This document shows, piece by piece, positions 46,544 to 54,005 of a stretch of DNA of 64,000 nt (position 1 is its first letter; each line of letters begins with the position of its first letter). The notes beneath the pieces were generated by a model that did no database searches, had not been told where the DNA came from, and worked only from the letters and a program-made list of their open reading frames with translations. A program made the translations under genes and the position numbers. Where the stretch lies: positions 5,828,001-5,892,000 of the forward strand of contig NZ_CP048405.1 of assembly GCF_014084125.1 (NCBI RefSeq), written 5' to 3'. The DNA is from Streptacidiphilus sp. PB12-B1b. Lineage in GTDB: Bacteria > Actinomycetota > Actinomycetes > Streptomycetales > Streptomycetaceae.

Positions 46544-48331
46544 ATGACTGAGCACACCCCTCTGCCCTTCCCGGTCGTCGCCGTCGTCGGCCTGGGCACC
46601 ATGGGCGCCGGGATCGCCGAGATCACCGCGCGCAGCGGCCGCCGGGTGATCGGCGTCGAGCTGGACCGGGCCGCCGCCGAGGCCGCGCGGTCGCGGATCG
46701 AGGAGTCCACCGCGCACTCCGTGGAGCGCGGCCGGATCACCCCGGACGAGCGCGCCGACCTGCTCGGGCGGCTCACCTTCACGCACGAGCTGGCCGCGGC
46801 CGCCGAGGCGCAGCTGGTGATCGAGGAGGTCCCGGAGGTGCTGGAGCTGAAGCGCGAGCTGTTCGCCGAGCTGGACCGGCTGTGCCCGGCGGAGACCGTG
46901 CTGGCGACCGGGACGACCGCGCTGTCGGTGACCCGGATCGCGGCTGCCACCCAGCGCCCGGAGCGCGTGATCGGGCTGCACTTCTTCAACCCGGCGCCGG
47001 TGATGCAGCTGGTGGAGGTGGTGCGGACGGTGCTGACCAGCGCCGGGGCGGCCGAGGAGGCGGCGGAGTTCGCCCGCAGCCTGGGCAAGTCGCCGGTGGC
47101 GGCGGGTGACCGTCCGGGCTTCATCGTGAACGGGCTGCTGTTCGCCTACCTGAACCAGGCGGCGGCCATGTTCGAGTCCCGGTACGCCACCCGGGAGGAC
47201 ATCGACGCGGCCATGCGGCTGGGCTGCGGCCTGCCGATGGGCCCGCTGGCGCTGCTGGACCTGATCGGCATCGACACCGCGCGGACGGTGCTGGAGGCCA
47301 TGTACGCGCAGTCGCACGACCGGCTGCACGCGCCCGCGCCGATCCTGGGCCAGCTGGCGGCGGCCGGGCTGCTGGGGCGCAAGACCGGGCGCGGCTTCTA
47401 CAGCTACGCCGCCCCCGGCTCCGCCCAGGTGGTGGCCGAACCGGAGCACGCGGGCGCGGGCCGTCCGGCCGGGCGCGAGGTGCGCAGCGTGGGCGTGTGC
47501 GGCTCGGGGACGATGGCCACCGGCATCGCCGAGGTGTTCGCCAAGGCCGGCTACCCGGTGCTGCTGGTGGCCCGCAGCCAGGAGAAGGCGGACCGGGCCA
47601 GGGCCGCCCTGGCGGCGTCGCTGGACCGGATGGTGGCCAAGGGCCGGCTGGACGCGGCGGACCGGGACGCGGCGCTGGCGCGGGTCACCGCCTCCGGCTC
47701 GCTGGAGGACCTGGCCCCGGCCGACCTGGTGCTGGAGGCGGTCGCCGAGGACCTGGCGGTCAAGCGGGAGCTGTTCGCGGCGCTGGACAAGATCTGCCGG
47801 CCGGGCGCGGTGCTGGCGACGACCACCTCCAGCCTGCCGGTGGTCCAGTGCGCCATGGCGACCTCCCGCCCGCAGGACGTGGTCGGCATGCACTTCTTCA
47901 ACCCGGCCCCGGCGATGCGGCTGGTCGAGGTGGTCAGCACGGTGCTGACCGCCGAGGACGTCACCGCGACCGTGCTGGAGCTGTGCGCGCGGGTGCGCAA
48001 GCACCCGGTGGAGTGCGGCGACCGGGCCGGCTTCATCGTGAACGCCCTGCTGTTCCCGTACCTGAACGACGCGGTGCGCATGATCGAGGAGCACTACGCC
48101 TCGGTGGACGACGTGGACACCGCCATGCGGCTGGGCTGCGGCTACCCCATGGGCCCGTTCGCGCTGCTGGACGTGGTCGGCCTGGACGTCTCGCTGACCA
48201 TCGAGAAGGTGCTGCACGCCGAGTTCCGCGAGCCCGGCCTGGCCCCGGCGCCGCTGCTGGAGCACCTGGTGGCCGCCGGGTGCCTCGGGCGCAAGTCCGG
48301 CCGGGGCTTCCGCGACCACGCACGCAAGTGA
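46544..48331 (+). CDS. Two-module 3-hydroxyacyl-CoA dehydrogenase
   Basis: A 595-residue protein made of two tandem 3-hydroxybutyryl-CoA dehydrogenase units. Each has an NAD-binding start (VVGLGTMGAGIAEI; VCGSGTMATGIAEV), HFFNPAP, and a C-terminal helical domain with RPGFIVNGLLF or RAGFIVNALLFPYLN and GCG-PMGPxALLDxxG. It should make acetoacetyl-CoA or (S)-3-hydroxybutyryl-CoA interconvert, feeding crotonyl-CoA into the neighbouring pathway. The first ATG with GAGGAG upstream was chosen. Confidence 0.9.
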   Translation: MTEHTPLPFPVVAVVGLGTMGAGIAEITARSGRRVIGVELDRAAAEAARSRIEESTAHSVERGRITPDERADLLGRLTFTHELAAAAEAQLVIEEVPEVLELKRELFAELDRLCPAETVLATGTTALSVTRIAAATQRPERVIGLHFFNPAPVMQLVEVVRTVLTSAGAAEEAAEFARSLGKSPVAAGDRPGFIVNGLLFAYLNQAAAMFESRYATREDIDAAMRLGCGLPMGPLALLDLIGIDTARTVLEAMYAQSHDRLHAPAPILGQLAAAGLLGRKTGRGFYSYAAPGSAQVVAEPEHAGAGRPAGREVRSVGVCGSGTMATGIAEVFAKAGYPVLLVARSQEKADRARAALAASLDRMVAKGRLDAADRDAALARVTASGSLEDLAPADLVLEAVAEDLAVKRELFAALDKICRPGAVLATTTSSLPVVQCAMATSRPQDVVGMHFFNPAPAMRLVEVVSTVLTAEDVTATVLELCARVRKHPVECGDRAGFIVNALLFPYLNDAVRMIEEHYASVDDVDTAMRLGCGYPMGPFALLDVVGLDVSLTIEKVLHAEFREPGLAPAPLLEHLVAAGCLGRKSGRGFRDHARK

Positions 48332-48384: not shown

Positions 48385-49266
48385 ATGGATGGGGAAGAAC
48401 CGCAGCAGCCGGGCACCGCCGCCGCGGGCGCCGGTCGCCGGGTGACAGCGCAGCGCCAGCAGATGCGCCAGGACCTGGCGGCGGCGGCGATGGAGCTGTT
48501 TGCGAACCAGGGGTACGAGGAGACCACGGTCGACCAGATCGCGGCGGCGGCGGGCGTCGCCCGGCGCACCTTCTTCCGGTACTTCCGGTCCAAGGAGGAG
48601 GCGATCTTCCCGGACCACGACGACACCCTGGTCCGGGTGGCCGACCTGCTGGCCGGGGCGGATCCGGCCGAGCACCCGCTGGACGTGGTGTGCCGGGGCA
48701 TCAAGGAGGTGCTGCGGATGTACGCGGCCACTCCCGGGGTCTCGGTGGCGCGCTACCGGCTGATCCGGCAGGTGCCGACGCTGCGCGAGCGGGAGATCGC
48801 GGTGGTGGCCCGCTACGAGCGGCTGTTCACCCGCTACCTGCTGGGCCGCTTCGACACCGCCGGGCAGGCGTCCGGCGGCTGGGAGCGGGGCGTCGGCGAC
48901 GACGCGATGCTGGCGGAGGTGTCGGCGGCGGCGGTGGTCGCGGCCCACAACCACGTGCTGCGGCGCTGGCTGCGCTCGGGCGGCAACGGCGAGGTGGAGC
49001 CGCAGCTGGACCACGCCTTCGAGGTCATCAAGCGGACCTTCTGGGGCAATGCCCCGGCCAGACCGGAGGACCGGGCCGGGGCACGCGTGGTGGCACCCAG
49101 TGCCATGAGCGGCTCGGCAGAGACCCTGGGCAGCGCGGTGGAGAGCGCAGTCAGTGCGACACCGGCGGGCGAGGTGCTGATCACCGTCGCCCGAACGGAC
49201 GCACCTCTGGACGAGGTGCTGCAGAGCATCCGCACCGCCCTGGGCGTCCCCAGCGGGGCTCCGTAG
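48385..49266 (+). CDS. TetR-family transcriptional regulator of the ethylmalonyl-CoA operon (probable)
   Basis: A 293-residue regulator. The HTH lies at about 30-75 (MELFANQGYEETTVDQIAAAAGVARRTFFRYFRSKEE in outline: the TFFRYFRSKE end is diagnostic of TetR). The C-terminal ligand domain is followed by an unusual extension (about 230-293) rich in Ser/Ala. It is directly upstream of ccr with a large operator-rich gap, so it is the likely regulator; this rests on position. Confidence 0.87.
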   Translation: MDGEEPQQPGTAAAGAGRRVTAQRQQMRQDLAAAAMELFANQGYEETTVDQIAAAAGVARRTFFRYFRSKEEAIFPDHDDTLVRVADLLAGADPAEHPLDVVCRGIKEVLRMYAATPGVSVARYRLIRQVPTLREREIAVVARYERLFTRYLLGRFDTAGQASGGWERGVGDDAMLAEVSAAAVVAAHNHVLRRWLRSGGNGEVEPQLDHAFEVIKRTFWGNAPARPEDRAGARVVAPSAMSGSAETLGSAVESAVSATPAGEVLITVARTDAPLDEVLQSIRTALGVPSGAP

Positions 49267-49284: not shown

Positions 49285-49318
49285 GTGGGCCCACCCCGGC
49301 AGTTCGGGGCGGGCCCAC
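49285..49318 (+). terminator. Hairpin terminator after the TetR gene
   Basis: Arms 49285-49297 and 49306-49318 pair over 13 bases with one mismatch around an 8-base loop, 19 bases after the TetR stop. Confidence 0.75.
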
Positions 49319-49351
49319 GGGCGTTCTGGGGCAGGTGTGCGCGGAGGTTTC

Positions 49352-49428
49352 CACGTGACAACGCTCACGTGTCGCGGGTGATAATTACTGGCACGCAGTG
49401 TCTTTACGAGTGGCACAGGGTGCCAGTA
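49352..49428 (+). promoter_or_regulatory. Promoter and operator region of the ethylmalonyl-CoA operon
   Basis: Two CACGTG hexamers (49352-49357, 49366-49371) precede GATAAT (49380-49385), a possible -10 with GTGACA (49355-49360) as -35 at a long 19-base spacing. Beyond it TACTGGCAC (49386-49394) is the exact reverse complement of GTGCCAGTA (49420-49428), and a third half-site TGGCAC lies at 49411-49416, giving TGGCAC-AGG-GTGCCA. This repeated half-site suggests cooperative binding of the adjacent TetR protein. The rest of the 49429-49629 leader shows no clear feature except GGAGG before ccr. Confidence 0.55.
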
Positions 49429-49629
49429 CGTTGTTACCCACCGGTCGTGGCGCCGCGGCTCCCCACCTGGCGCGCCCTGCCCGGATTCCGTACGCCACCC
49501 CTGTGCGGAGAGCGACAAACAGCCTCATCCTGACGACTGAAGCCCCCCATCCCCAACCGGTGTCCGCTCCCGGTTACCCCCATCTCGACGCACCCTGTTC
49601 CCTCGACAGGTCCGCCGCCGGAGGCAGCC

Positions 49630-50967
49630 ATGAAGGAAATCCTCGACGCGATCCTCAACGAGGACACCAGCCCGGCCGACTATGCCGCGCTGAAGGTCCC
49701 CGACTCCTACCGGGCGGTCACGCTCCACAAGGACGAGGAGCAGATGTTCGCCGGCCTGGACAGCCGCGACAAGGACCCGCGCCAGTCCCTGCACCTCGAC
49801 GAGGTCGCCGTGCCCGAGCTGGGCCCCGGCGAGGCCCTGGTCGCGGTCATGGCCAGTGCCGTGAACTACAACACCGTGTGGAGCTCGATCTACGAGCCGG
49901 TCTCCACCTTCGGCTTCCTGGAGCGCTACGGGCGGCTGTCGCCGGAGAGCGCGCGGCACAACCTGCCGTACCACGTGCTCGGCTCGGACCTGGCCGGCGT
50001 GGTGCTGCGCACCGGCCCCGGCGTGCACGCCTGGAAGCCCGGCGACGAGGTCGTCGCGCACTGCCTGAGCGTGGAGCTGGAGAGCGCGGACGGCCACAAC
50101 GACACCATGCTCGACCCGGAGCAGCGGATCTGGGGCTTCGAGACCAACTTCGGCGGCCTGGCCGAGCTGGCCCTGGTCAAGTCCAACCAGCTGATGCCCA
50201 AGCCGGCCCACCTGACCTGGGAGGAGGCCGCGTCGCCGGGCCTGGTCAACTCCACCGCCTACCGGCAGCTGGTCAGCCGCAACGGCGCGGGCATGAAGCA
50301 GGGCGACAACGTGCTGATCTGGGGCGCCAGCGGCGGCCTGGGCTCGTACGCCACCCAGTACGCGCTGGCCGGCGGCGCCACGCCGATCTGCGTGGTCTCC
50401 AACGACGCCAAGGCCGACATCTGCCGGGCCATGGGCGCCGAGGCGATCATCGACCGCAGCGCCGAGGGGTACAAGTTCTGGAAGGACGAGAACAACCAGG
50501 ACCCGCGCGAGTGGAAGCGCCTGGGCGCGAAGATCCGCGAGCTGACCGGAGGCGAGGACGTGGACATCGTCTTCGAGCACCCGGGCCGGGAGACCTTCGG
50601 CGCCAGCGTCTACGTGACGCGCAAGGGCGGCACCATCGTCACCTGCGCCTCCACCAGCGGGTACATGCACCAGTACGACAACCGCTACCTGTGGATGTCG
50701 CTGAAGCGGATCGTCGGCTCGCACTTCGCCAACTACCGCGAGGCGTGGGAGGCCAACCGCCTGATCGCCAAGGGCAAGATCCACCCGACGCTGTCGCGGA
50801 CGTACAGCCTGGAGCAGACCGGGCAGGCGGCGCTGGACGTCCACCACAACAAGCACCAGGGCAAGGTCGGCGTGCTCTGCCTCTCCCCGCAGGAGGGCCT
50901 CGGGGTCCGCGACCCGGAGCTGCGCGCCAAGCACCTGCCTGCCATCAATCGATTCCGAGGCGAGTGA
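49630..50967 (+). CDS. ccr: Crotonyl-CoA carboxylase/reductase
   Basis: A 445-residue MDR enzyme that reductively carboxylates crotonyl-CoA to ethylmalonyl-CoA with NADPH and CO2. Residues reported for CO2 binding in the Kitasatospora setae enzyme (Asn81, Phe170, Glu171, His365) occur at exactly those positions here. The NADPH loop is WGASGGLGSYA. It opens the operon continuing with ethylmalonyl-CoA mutase 4 bases later. Products supply ethylmalonyl-CoA for polyketides and the acetyl-CoA assimilation pathway. Confidence 0.96.
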   Translation: MKEILDAILNEDTSPADYAALKVPDSYRAVTLHKDEEQMFAGLDSRDKDPRQSLHLDEVAVPELGPGEALVAVMASAVNYNTVWSSIYEPVSTFGFLERYGRLSPESARHNLPYHVLGSDLAGVVLRTGPGVHAWKPGDEVVAHCLSVELESADGHNDTMLDPEQRIWGFETNFGGLAELALVKSNQLMPKPAHLTWEEAASPGLVNSTAYRQLVSRNGAGMKQGDNVLIWGASGGLGSYATQYALAGGATPICVVSNDAKADICRAMGAEAIIDRSAEGYKFWKDENNQDPREWKRLGAKIRELTGGEDVDIVFEHPGRETFGASVYVTRKGGTIVTCASTSGYMHQYDNRYLWMSLKRIVGSHFANYREAWEANRLIAKGKIHPTLSRTYSLEQTGQAALDVHHNKHQGKVGVLCLSPQEGLGVRDPELRAKHLPAINRFRGE

Positions 50968-50971
50968 CGAC

Positions 50972-52996
50972 ATGGCTGAGCGAGACCGCCCCTGGCTGAT
51001 GCGGACCTACGCCGGACACTCGTCGGCGACCGCGTCCAACGCGCTCTACCGGAAGAACCTGGCCAAGGGCCAGACCGGTCTCTCCGTCGCCTTCGACCTG
51101 CCGACGCAGACCGGCTACGACCCCGACCACGTCCTGGCCAAGGGCGAGGTCGGCCGGGTCGGCGTCCCGGTGAGCCACCTGGGCGACATGCGGGCGCTGT
51201 TCGACGGCATCCCGCTGGAGCGCACCAACACCTCCATGACGATCAACGCCACGGCCATGTGGCTGCTGGCGATGTACCAGGTCGTCGCGGAGGAGCAGGG
51301 GGCGGACATCGCCAAGCTCACCGGCACCACCCAGAACGACATCGTCAAGGAGTACCTGTCGCGCGGGACGCACGTCTTCCCGCCCGGCCCCAGCATCCGG
51401 CTGACCACCGACATGATCGCCTACACGGTGGCGAACATCCCCAAGTGGAACCCGATCAACATCTGCAGCTACCACCTGCAGGAGGCCGGGGCCACCCCGG
51501 TGCAGGAGCTGGCCTACGCCATGTGCACCGCGATCGCGGTGCTGGACGCGGTCCGCGACAGCGGCCAGGTGGCCCCGGAGCGGATGGGCGAGGTGGTCGC
51601 CCGGATCTCCTTCTTCGTCAACGCCGGGGTGCGCTTCGTCGAGGAGATGTGCAAGCTCCGTGCCTTCGGCCGGATCTGGGAGCAGGTCACCCGCGAGCGC
51701 TACGGCATCGCCGACCCCAAGCAGCGCCGGTTCCGCTACGGCGTGCAGGTCAACTCGCTCGGCCTGACCGAGGCGCAGCCGGAGAACAACGTCCAGCGGA
51801 TCGTGCTGGAGATGCTGGCAGTGACCCTCTCCAAGGACGCCCGGGCCCGCGCCGTGCAGCTGCCCGCCTGGAACGAGGCGCTGGGCCTGCCCCGGCCCTG
51901 GGACCAGCAGTGGTCGCTGCGCATCCAGCAGGTGCTGGCGTACGAGTCGGACCTGCTGGAGTACGGGGACCTGTTCGACGGCAGCCATGTGGTCGAGGCC
52001 AAGGTCGCCGAGCTGGTGGCCGGGGCCGGGGCGGAGATCGAGAAGGTGCTGGGCATGGGCGGGGTGGTCCCGGCCGTCGAGACCGGCTACCTGAAGGCCG
52101 CGCTGGTCGGCTCGCACGCCGAGCGCCGGGCCCGGATCGAGTCCGGCGAGGACAAGGTGGTCGGCGTCAACTGCTTCGAGACCACCGAGCCCAGCCCGCT
52201 CACCGCCGATTTGGACACCGCCATCATGCAGGTCGACCCGGACTCGGAGCGGGCCGTCGCCGAGGCGTTCGCGCAGTGGACCGCCGGGCGCGACGAGGCG
52301 GCCGCGCAGGCCGCCCTGGCCGAGCTGAAGCGGCAGGCCGCCACCGACGCCAACCTGGTCCCGGTGACGCTGGAGTGCGTCCGGGCCGGGGTCACCACCG
52401 GCGAGTGGTCCTTCGCGCTGCGCGAGGTCTTCGGCGAGTACCGCGCCCCCACCGGCGTCGGCGGCGCGCCGATCACCGGCGCCGTGGGCGGCGACAGCGG
52501 CTCGGAGCTGCTGGCCGTCCGCGAGGCCGTGGCCGCCACCGCCGAGGAGCTGGGCGCCGGCAAGCTGCGGCTGCTGGTCGGCAAGCCCGGTCTGGACGGG
52601 CACTCCAACGGCGCCGAGCAGATCGCGGTGCGCGCCCGCGACGCCGGCTTCGAGGTGGTCTACCAGGGCATCCGGCTGACCCCGGAGCAGATCACGGCGG
52701 CGGCCGTGGCCGAGGACGTCCACTGCGTGGGCCTGTCGATCCTCTCCGGCGCGCACGCCGAGCTGGTCCCGGACGTGCTGCGGCGGCTGCGCCGGGCCGG
52801 GGTGGAGGACGTCCCGGTGATCGTCGGCGGGATCATCCCGGCCGCCGACGAGCAGGCGCTGCTGGCCGGGGGCGTCGCGGCGGTGTTCACGCCCAAGGAC
52901 TTCGGGATCACCACCATCATCGGCCGGATCGTCGACGAGATCCGGCTCGCCAACAAGCTGGAGCCCTGGAAGGGCCGCGTGCCGGTCGCCCCCTAG
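50972..52996 (+). CDS. ecm: Ethylmalonyl-CoA mutase (B12-dependent; MeaA)
   Basis: A 674-residue mutase converting ethylmalonyl-CoA to methylsuccinyl-CoA. The N-terminal barrel carries YAGHSSATASNALYRKN, FDLPTQTGYDPDH and the ethylmalonyl-type NTSMTINATAMWLLAMYQ. The C-terminal cobalamin domain has KPGLDGHSNGAEQIA (DxHxxG, His axial ligand) and LSILSGAH. The end of ccr is four bases away. Methylmalonyl-CoA mutase is the close alternative, but context favours Ecm. Confidence 0.93.
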   Translation: MAERDRPWLMRTYAGHSSATASNALYRKNLAKGQTGLSVAFDLPTQTGYDPDHVLAKGEVGRVGVPVSHLGDMRALFDGIPLERTNTSMTINATAMWLLAMYQVVAEEQGADIAKLTGTTQNDIVKEYLSRGTHVFPPGPSIRLTTDMIAYTVANIPKWNPINICSYHLQEAGATPVQELAYAMCTAIAVLDAVRDSGQVAPERMGEVVARISFFVNAGVRFVEEMCKLRAFGRIWEQVTRERYGIADPKQRRFRYGVQVNSLGLTEAQPENNVQRIVLEMLAVTLSKDARARAVQLPAWNEALGLPRPWDQQWSLRIQQVLAYESDLLEYGDLFDGSHVVEAKVAELVAGAGAEIEKVLGMGGVVPAVETGYLKAALVGSHAERRARIESGEDKVVGVNCFETTEPSPLTADLDTAIMQVDPDSERAVAEAFAQWTAGRDEAAAQAALAELKRQAATDANLVPVTLECVRAGVTTGEWSFALREVFGEYRAPTGVGGAPITGAVGGDSGSELLAVREAVAATAEELGAGKLRLLVGKPGLDGHSNGAEQIAVRARDAGFEVVYQGIRLTPEQITAAAVAEDVHCVGLSILSGAHAELVPDVLRRLRRAGVEDVPVIVGGIIPAADEQALLAGGVAAVFTPKDFGITTIIGRIVDEIRLANKLEPWKGRVPVAP

Positions 52997-53045: not shown

Positions 53046-54005
53046 ATGACTGTCAATCGCCTGCGCCCCCGCCGCTCGTGCCTGGCCGTCCCCGGAAGCA
53101 ATCCGCGCTTCCTGGAGAAGGCCCAGGGGCTGGCCGCCGACCAGGTCTTCCTGGACCTGGAGGACGCCTGCGCGCCGCTCGCCAAGGAGGGCGCCCGCCA
53201 CACCGTCGTGGACGCGCTCAACACCGGCGACTGGACCGGCAAGACCCGTGTGGTGCGGGTCAACGACTGGACCACGCACTGGACCTACCGCGACGTGGTG
53301 ACCGTGGTGGAGGGCGCCGGGCAGAACCTGGACTGCATCATGCTGCCCAAGGTCCAGGACGCGCAGCAGGTCGTCGCGCTGGACCTGCTGCTCACCCAGA
53401 TCGAGAAGACCATGGGCTTCGAGGTCGGCCGGATCGGCATCGAGGCGCAGATCGAGAACGCCAGGGGCCTGGTCAACGTGGACGCCATCGCCGGGGCCTC
53501 GCCGCGGATGGAGACCATCGTCTTCGGCCCGGCCGACTTCATGGCCTCCATCAACATGAAGTCCCTGGTGGTCGGCGAGCAGCCGCCGGGCTACGGCGCC
53601 GACGCCTACCACTACATCCTGATGCGCATCCTGATGGCCGCCCGCATGCACGACCTGCAGGCCATCGACGGCCCCTACCTGCAGATCCGCAACGTCGACG
53701 GCTACCGCGAGGTCGCCCGGCGCTCGGCGGCGCTGGGCTTCGACGGCAAGTGGGTGCTGCACCCCGGCCAGGTGGAGGCGGCCAACGAGGTCTACTCCCC
53801 CACCCAGGAGGACTACGACCACGCCGAGCTGATCCTGGACGCCTACGACTGGTGCACCTCGGAGGCCGGCGGCAAGAAGGGCTCGGCGATGCTCGGCGAC
53901 GAGATGATCGACGAGGCCAGCCGCAAGATGGCGCTGGTGGTCGCGGGCAAGGGCCGCAACGCGGGCATGCAGCGCACCACCAAGTTCGAGATCCCGGAGG
54001 CCTGA
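53046..54005 (+). CDS. mcl1: L-malyl-CoA/beta-methylmalyl-CoA lyase (HpcH/HpaI family)
   Basis: A 319-residue CitE-like aldolase splitting beta-methylmalyl-CoA to propionyl-CoA and glyoxylate (and possibly malyl-CoA). Motifs are RRSCLAVPGSNPRFLEKA, FLDLEDACAP (metal Asp/Glu) and EAQIENARGLVNVDAI with FGPADFM. It ends 2 bases before the next gene. A 49-base gap after ecm contains its ribosome site. Confidence 0.92.
   Translation: MTVNRLRPRRSCLAVPGSNPRFLEKAQGLAADQVFLDLEDACAPLAKEGARHTVVDALNTGDWTGKTRVVRVNDWTTHWTYRDVVTVVEGAGQNLDCIMLPKVQDAQQVVALDLLLTQIEKTMGFEVGRIGIEAQIENARGLVNVDAIAGASPRMETIVFGPADFMASINMKSLVVGEQPPGYGADAYHYILMRILMAARMHDLQAIDGPYLQIRNVDGYREVARRSAALGFDGKWVLHPGQVEAANEVYSPTQEDYDHAELILDAYDWCTSEAGGKKGSAMLGDEMIDEASRKMALVVAGKGRNAGMQRTTKFEIPEA

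Follow-up and report, generated by a model that had tools for sequence, protein, structure and literature searches.

Crotonyl-CoA carboxylase/reductase, the product of ccr, opens a main route of acetyl-CoA use in Streptomyces-like bacteria and is the step at which carbon is committed to the ethylmalonyl-CoA pathway and to the extender units of polyketides. In Methylobacterium extorquens, ccr is reportedly activated by CcrR, a TetR-family protein said to have been described by Hu and Lidstrom in 2012. CcrR resembles the regulator considered here in that both are TetR proteins tied to a gene of the ethylmalonyl-CoA pathway, and differs from it in being a reported activator; the likeness is one of description rather than of compared sequences or sites. 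MftR of Mycolicibacterium smegmatis, also of the TetR family, binds long-chain acyl-CoAs and has a single footprinted operator ahead of the mycofactocin genes; the footprint contains TGGCACTCGATGCCA, and single-base changes in the operator did not abolish binding according to its authors (PMC8728441, accessible text). RamB of Paracoccus denitrificans connects the ethylmalonyl-CoA pathway with the glyoxylate cycle via a CoA ester, but is another regulator, reported both to repress and to activate the glyoxylate-cycle promoter (PMC10370305, available portion). AccR of Streptomyces avermitilis, a TetR repressor of short-chain acyl-CoA genes, differs in its other named targets and in its motif, GTTAA-N6-TTAAC (PMC10933834, excerpt). 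This motif has no match with up to two mismatches between tetR and ccr, and two 2-mismatch matches elsewhere within the window; the reading of the site as an AccR operator was rejected because the motif is missing near ccr. The accessible portions of the open-access literature searched describe no target of the ccr-adjacent TetR, and SCO6474, its counterpart in S. coelicolor M145, is mentioned there only as a TetR gene near sco6475 (PMC7324645).

The window, by which we mean the whole stretch of 64,000 nucleotides analysed, contains ccr together with tetR, which encodes an MftR-like regulator (Table 1). The 3-hydroxybutyryl-CoA dehydrogenase-type gene lies upstream of tetR on the same strand. 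The mutase gene matches the models of the N- and C-terminal domains of methylmalonyl-CoA mutase but falls short of the methylmalonyl-CoA mutase equivalog.

Table 1. Features of the ccr locus, in window coordinates.
Feature	Coordinates	Strand	Remarks
Two-domain 3-hydroxybutyryl-CoA dehydrogenase-type gene	46544..48331	+	PRK07819 650 bits against a cut-off of 319; putative start
tetR, MftR-like TetR regulator	48385..49266	+	293 aa; putative start codon ATG 48385
Operator O3, TGGCACCCAGTGCCA	49091..49105	+	inside the 3' part of the tetR coding sequence
Crp-type palindrome, CACGTGA-N6-TCACGTG	49352..49371	.	core GTGA-N6-TCAC at 49355-49368
Operator O1, TGGCACGCAGTGTCT	49389..49403	+	imperfect 15-bp palindrome; 20.8 bits
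Likely -35, TTTACG	49403..49408	+	putative; position conserved
Operator O2, TGGCACAGGGTGCCA	49411..49425	+	15-bp palindrome in the -35/-10 spacer; 20.9 bits
Likely -10, TACGTT	49427..49432	+	putative; position conserved
ccr, crotonyl-CoA carboxylase/reductase	49630..50967	+	TIGR01751 612 bits against a cut-off of 378.6
Mutase gene	50972..52996	+	putative ethylmalonyl-CoA mutase, by position
CitE-like lyase	53046..54005	+	putative malyl-CoA lyase, by position; citE 175.7 bits, below the cut-off of 443.4

The promoter of ccr carries O1 and O2 as tandem 15-bp palindromes of the form TGRCAC-N3-GTGYCW with a start-to-start distance of 22 bp, O1 lying upstream of the likely -35 and sharing one base with it. 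The first-pass annotation had proposed a multi-site operator ahead of the ethylmalonyl-CoA operon, built of three TGGCAC-type half-sites, and the conserved tandem palindromes support such an operator. The half-sites were found as described, with TACTGGCAC at 49386-49394, its reverse complement at 49420-49428 and a further TGGCAC at 49411, and the two 9-mers are the sole exact copies of this sequence within 64 kb. The 9-bp outer pair with its N25 spacer, taken as a unit, mixes one arm of O1 with one arm of O2. Its conservation had been suggested as a check, and the exact pattern TACTGGCAC-N25-GTGCCAGTA occurs in 2/14 genomes of the genus and is rejected as a conserved unit; among these 14 genomes the outer pair with any spacer of 15-32 is exact only in the window's own genome and in G013. 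The operator exists, and its parts had been wrongly grouped; a third full site, O3 (49091), falls outside the range 49352-49428 that had been given to it. The 7.67-Mb genome contains 6 instances of the pattern TGRCACNNNGTGYCW, 3 of them inside 335 bp at the ccr locus, and the reversed control contains 2. On a position matrix derived from the ccr loci, O1, O2 and O3 score 20.8-22.1 bits, and no other 15-mer of the window exceeds 4.6. The matrix was built on 79 loci, namely the window and L005-L084 minus L057 and L060, in which the tandem is present but farther from the aligned gene; L085 and L086 were excluded as whole-genome copies.

The named loci are the best 80 of 542 confirmed TetR relatives, and are thus picked by TetR similarity; their titles are Streptacidiphilus, Kitasatospora and Streptomyces. 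O1 and O2 stand 22 bp apart in 80/80 of them, with a weaker O2 in some Streptomyces (a TGTCAC, CGTCAC or TGTCAT arm; as low as 9.3 bits). The window comes from a Streptacidiphilus-like genome; L005 and L014 are the nearest of these best 80 of 542, with a TetR 92% identical to that of the window. Within the same set ccr is present in 79 of the 80, the exception, L057, stopping short of it, and tetR adjoins ccr in most loci read. A class sample of 296 evenly drawn genomes, 28 of them Streptomycetaceae, revealed the exact tandem in 23, at a single place each and all within the family, with 0 in the reversed control; the pair is found in 26/28 Streptomycetaceae once the variants of G102, G204 and G221 are counted. 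In a separate tandem scan of the 14 genomes of the genus, allowing two mismatches proved too loose, the control giving about as many matches as the real search among the matches listed. The TetR is found in 28/28 Streptomycetaceae of the sample (E up to 3.6e-81), and of the 268 sampled genomes from other families 54 encode a related TetR (E up to 1e-20), of which 0 have the exact tandem. In all 26 pair-bearing Streptomycetaceae ccr starts 189-310 bp downstream of O1, including G102, where an amino-acid-permease-like gene separates tetR from ccr and the operators remain with ccr. The genomes G247 and G298 (loci L117 and L120) keep the TetR near a CitE-like gene, which in G247 comes after tetR, and have no ccr match at E up to 1e-40, no exact tandem, and nothing scoring more than 3 bits in the surroundings of tetR. 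The operators therefore track ccr, being ahead of it in 26/26 and gone in these two ccr-less genomes, and the retention of tetR without ccr in the latter implies that the two genes are not strictly needed by each other.

Candidate promoter elements flank O2. In relatives, a -10 of the form TAC[GC]TT and kin follows O2, and the -35 stands 17-18 bp upstream of it; the Streptomyces loci have TTG (TTGNNN) in place of the window's TTTACG, and the window -10 is preceded by one more base than the Streptomyces -10. GATAAT (49380-49385), a -10 that had looked plausible from the window alone, is present in only 1/12 distinct Streptacidiphilus promoters and was rejected in favour of TACGTT, the candidate conserved in position. 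An E. coli-style promoter scan found nothing in this DNA, a result of little weight in an actinomycete of high GC content. The placement of O2 between the -35 and the -10 argues for repression. Two TetR dimers may be accommodated side by side on the same DNA face, as 22 bp correspond to about two turns, and RNA polymerase would be kept off the ccr operon because occupancy of O2 would cover the -35/-10 spacer and O1 would touch the -35.

The two CACGTG boxes noticed earlier at 49352 and 49366 are present, yet as arms of a single Crp-type palindrome, CACGTGA-CAACGC-TCACGTG, and not as two boxes. The Crp consensus core is GTGA-N6-TCAC. Among the ccr promoters fetched, 12 distinct ones from Streptacidiphilus keep both arms, GTGA and TCAC, unchanged, with 8 different N6 sequences between them; O1 begins 34 bp after the start of the core in 11 of these promoters and 33 bp after it in 1. 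The palindrome is absent from L006, a locus titled Streptacidiphilus, and was not found less than 400 bp from ccr in the Kitasatospora and Streptomyces loci; a relaxed GTG-N8-CAC, which appears at varying places in several of these, was not scored as a Crp site. The pattern by itself is ordinary (0.59 occurrences expected in the window and 1 observed; 13 genome places for the 16-mer form against 7 in the reversed control), and the weight carried by this putative Crp site comes from its fixed position in relatives. A candidate Crp protein, named as such by eye, is encoded at G000:C1:329315, where HTH_Crp_2 scores above its cut-off. The ccr transcript of S. cinnamonensis goes up with crp overexpression and down with crp silencing, the accessible text reporting a change in expression and not Crp binding (PMC7074812); that strain belongs to Streptomyces, whose sampled ccr promoters are without the Crp-type palindrome.

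The third operator overlies the tetR codons V-A-P-S-A in a region where the TetR protein sequence is variable. The strict O3 pattern is found in 27/28 loci of the Streptacidiphilus/Kitasatospora clade (the window and L005-L031, some of which carry Streptomyces titles; among the best 80 of 542), and L030 has a weaker copy of 18.6 bits. At O3, alanines are encoded by GCA in 26/26 cases, glycines by GGT in 22/22 and serines by AGT in 5/5, counts that are not independent events because the clade loci are related; in tetR and ccr of the clade loci, sites included, GCA makes up 4.3% of alanine codons, GGT 8.0% of glycine codons and AGT 4.7% of serine codons. This synonymous constraint probably reflects selection at the DNA level. 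The distance from O3 to O1 is 298 bp in the window, 226-326 bp in the named loci (best 80 of 542) and 373 bp in G310, and because of this variation a loop of strict phase is unsupported; in Streptacidiphilus and Kitasatospora, O3 may provide either a higher local repressor concentration or a loop. In 16/53 Streptomyces loci among the best 80 of 542, a site lies instead 23-38 bp ahead of the point where the aligned tetR begins, and L047 and L076 have one 165 bp upstream of O1.

The regulator is assigned to the TetR family by PF00440 (60 bits against a cut-off of 24) and by the helical core of its structure model, which drew on 28 of the 81 TetR sequences and has a mean pLDDT of 72 and a pTM of 0.60. 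Its best NCBIfam model is that of MftR, TIGR03968, at 97.5 bits; as this is far below the cut-off of 224.9, the protein is MftR-like and not MftR. A Foldseek search ranks MftR (8x0a) first, narrowly ahead of other TetR structures, and in phmmer five TetR structures outrank 8x0a, which is sixth. In the recognition helix, R58-R63 do not vary among the 28 aligned TetR sequences, which also share a conserved C-terminal tail after a variable linker. What had been described as an extra C-terminal domain proved to be a linker of low confidence at residues 221-261 (pLDDT below 50) and, after it, a conserved tail of one short strand and a helix (pLDDT about 52-67). The operators compare well with that of MftR, the cores being TGGCAC-N3-ATGCCA for MftR and TGRCAC-N3-GTGYCW at ccr, and TGGCACTCGATGCCA scores 15.7 bits on a matrix of ccr sites only. 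The MftR operator core GGCA-N5-TGCC is found at O2 and O3, and O1 has TGTC in one arm; the outer T-N2 / N2-A of the published palindrome is found at none of the three. This resemblance of the footprinted site, with its TGGCAC...TGCCA core, supports the earlier proposal that the operator probably belongs to the adjoining TetR, and the proposed response to CoA esters is plausible by analogy with acyl-CoA binding by MftR (PMC8728441, accessible text). The ccr system differs from that of MftR in its tandem operators within the promoter, the third one inside a gene, the C-terminal tail, and its candidate targets in the ethylmalonyl-CoA and glyoxylate pathways. The ccr operator is therefore ordinary in kind, as a TetR operator, and unusual in layout and possible reach.

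Further strict sites in the window's genome stand ahead of citA and of the second etfBA copy. Away from the ccr promoter the partners at 22 bp score low, with 10-11 bits for citA (11.0 in the window's genome), 4.7 for etfBA and 3.1 for the genome's own tetR paralogue. A scan of citA in 29 other genomes of the family gave a site above 20 bits in 10, 6 of them with a 22-bp partner, weaker sites only in 3, and nothing above 4 bits in 16; at etfB, 25 of the 28 other loci scanned have nothing above 4 bits. The etfB copies of the window's genome at G000:C1:4441134 and G000:C1:4880448 match the query equally, at 100%, and G331 likewise has two copies of equal score; in the former genome a site exceeding 4 bits is limited to the copy at G000:C1:4880448, where its 22-bp partner is weak. 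Among the tandem matches with 0-1 mismatch listed, through G007, for the 14 genomes of the genus, those at ccr, citA, an etfBA-type locus and beside the paralogue recur, etfBA itself having been identified in G000 and G001. Among the matches listed with two mismatches, hbd appears in G001 and G006 only. The site at G000:C1:3710666 sits in a small predicted gene, may be due to chance, and was set aside. An element of the form TGGCACTC-N9-GAGTGCCA, which resembles the CIRCE elements found at heat-shock genes, also lies elsewhere in this genome (L004, G000:C1:1624239).

Four genomes of genus g2, presumed to be Streptomyces, and G310 together contain the pattern TGRCACNNNGTGYCA at 25 places, against 3 in the reversed control; 18 of the 25 are at genes matched in at least two of the five genomes. 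Counted by genome, these are ccr (5), ppdk (4), a fabG-type SDR (3), aceA (2), aceB (2) and either a CoA-transferase-like gene or the peptidase-like gene next to it (2); citA, the paralogue and O3 within tetR add 1 each, and the 4 remaining sites, which are unassigned, lie, by eye, near thrB/rho, near bioB/bioF, near a subtilisin-like gene and downstream of a mutase gene. NCBIfam names were checked for two sets of 10 representative genes, the remaining names being given by eye; the SDR matches the FabG subfamily model only, L266 is below the CoA-transferase model cut-offs, and L269 matched no model.

The paralogue (L272; G000:C1:3657538-3658152) is 52% identical to TetR over the aligned part; downstream of it come a pair of sites at a 22-bp spacing (3.1 and 14.4 bits) and a gene that by eye encodes a DUF35-like Zn-ribbon protein; in three other Streptacidiphilus genomes read it also lies beside an acyl-CoA dehydrogenase gene. 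The possibility that it is the main protein on ccr-type sites, or that both regulators compete for them, deserves attention since its recognition helix is nearly that of TetR (RRSFFRYF against RRTFFRYF), it has a site of its own with a 22-bp partner, and its copy in G004 also matches TIGR03968, at 101.5 bits. We nevertheless regard it as unlikely, because most loci read have tetR beside ccr and because O3 lies inside tetR. In the window's genome, moreover, the site centres at etfBA and at the paralogue are TGA or TCA and differ from those at ccr and citA, a difference of pattern only.

Activation of ccr by TetR from O1, in the way reported for CcrR in Methylobacterium, would suit the centre of O1, which would lie about 43 bp upstream of the putative transcript start and so near the usual position of an activator. 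The centre of O2, by contrast, would lie near -21, between the promoter elements, where a bound protein would block the polymerase; the conservation of this site renders activation quite improbable. Very little credence is given to the view that the palindromes serve some other regulator and that the neighbouring TetR is incidental. In its favour, the S. venezuelae ccr promoter (Sven_6307) is enriched in GlnR ChIP, with no box named in the available text (PMC3087709), against which stand the same core in the MftR footprint (PMC8728441, accessible text) and the same 15-mer inside tetR.

O1 and O2 are best read as putative tandem operators of the adjoining MftR-like TetR, and we consider it likely that they belong to a repressor system of MftR-like type that responds to acyl-CoA and governs acetyl-CoA assimilation, Crp adding an input at ccr in Streptacidiphilus. 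Acyl-CoA arising from the use of acetate or fatty acids would release the repressor, and in Streptacidiphilus cAMP-Crp bound upstream would add activation. The candidate regulon for acetyl-CoA assimilation would comprise citA, the second etfBA, aceA, aceB, ppdk and the fabG-type SDR, and more weakly hbd, and may be common to the paralogous TetR with its near-identical recognition helix. Because similar sites precede other genes of acetate use, one switch for a whole metabolic programme is possible. More tentatively, and with somewhat less than even confidence, the MftR-like TetR pair could be a master switch of acetyl-CoA assimilation, with the Streptacidiphilus-type Crp input, O3 and a layer of leader RNA; such a switch, answering to an acyl-CoA signal through operators spaced by 22 bp, could jointly cover, across Streptomycetaceae, the ethylmalonyl-CoA pathway, the glyoxylate shunt, citrate synthase, pyruvate phosphate dikinase and ETF. 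Knowing the operator and its likely regulator would allow the supply of polyketide precursors to be manipulated directly, and the wider set of sites suggests how Streptomycetaceae may coordinate two acetate routes.

Downstream of the -10, the Streptomyces ccr leader can form four helices, P1-P4 (for example L033:3938-4045), with P1 formed by GUCCGGGC/GCCCGGAC and P4 by GCCUG-CGUCA-CAGGC. The leader alignment, A2, holds 39/53 Streptomyces loci among the best 80 of 542; L038, L040, L049, L060, L061, L070 and L082, which have no P2 hairpin, and L032, L055, L068, L071, L073, L079 and L083, mostly near-copies, were left out. In these 39 selected sequences 93.2% of the cells pair, and the exclusion of the other loci biases this outcome towards the structure. 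Doubly changed cells number 56, compared with 20.5 +/- 3.3 in shuffled and 5-17 in slid controls, and doubly changed pairs are less striking (8 against 5.8; 28/500 shuffles). RNAalifold (-38.4 kcal/mol) predicts P1, most of P2 and P4, and not P3 as drawn, which pairs in 77.7% of the cells. Rfam gave no match for window positions 49300-49700 (E up to 1) or for six loci (gathering scores), and a known RNA family in the leader was accordingly rejected. The alignment indicates that the Streptomyces ccr mRNA has a conserved, covarying leader of predicted structure. The leader of the window (49433-49629) is unlike it and contains the hairpin ACCGGTGTCCGCTCCCGGT; a hairpin of this type, xCCGG..CCGGy, is found in 29/29 loci compared, its outer pair being G-C in 25 and A-T in 4, and GTCGCGGCGCCGCGGCTCCCCACC is conserved in 28/29.
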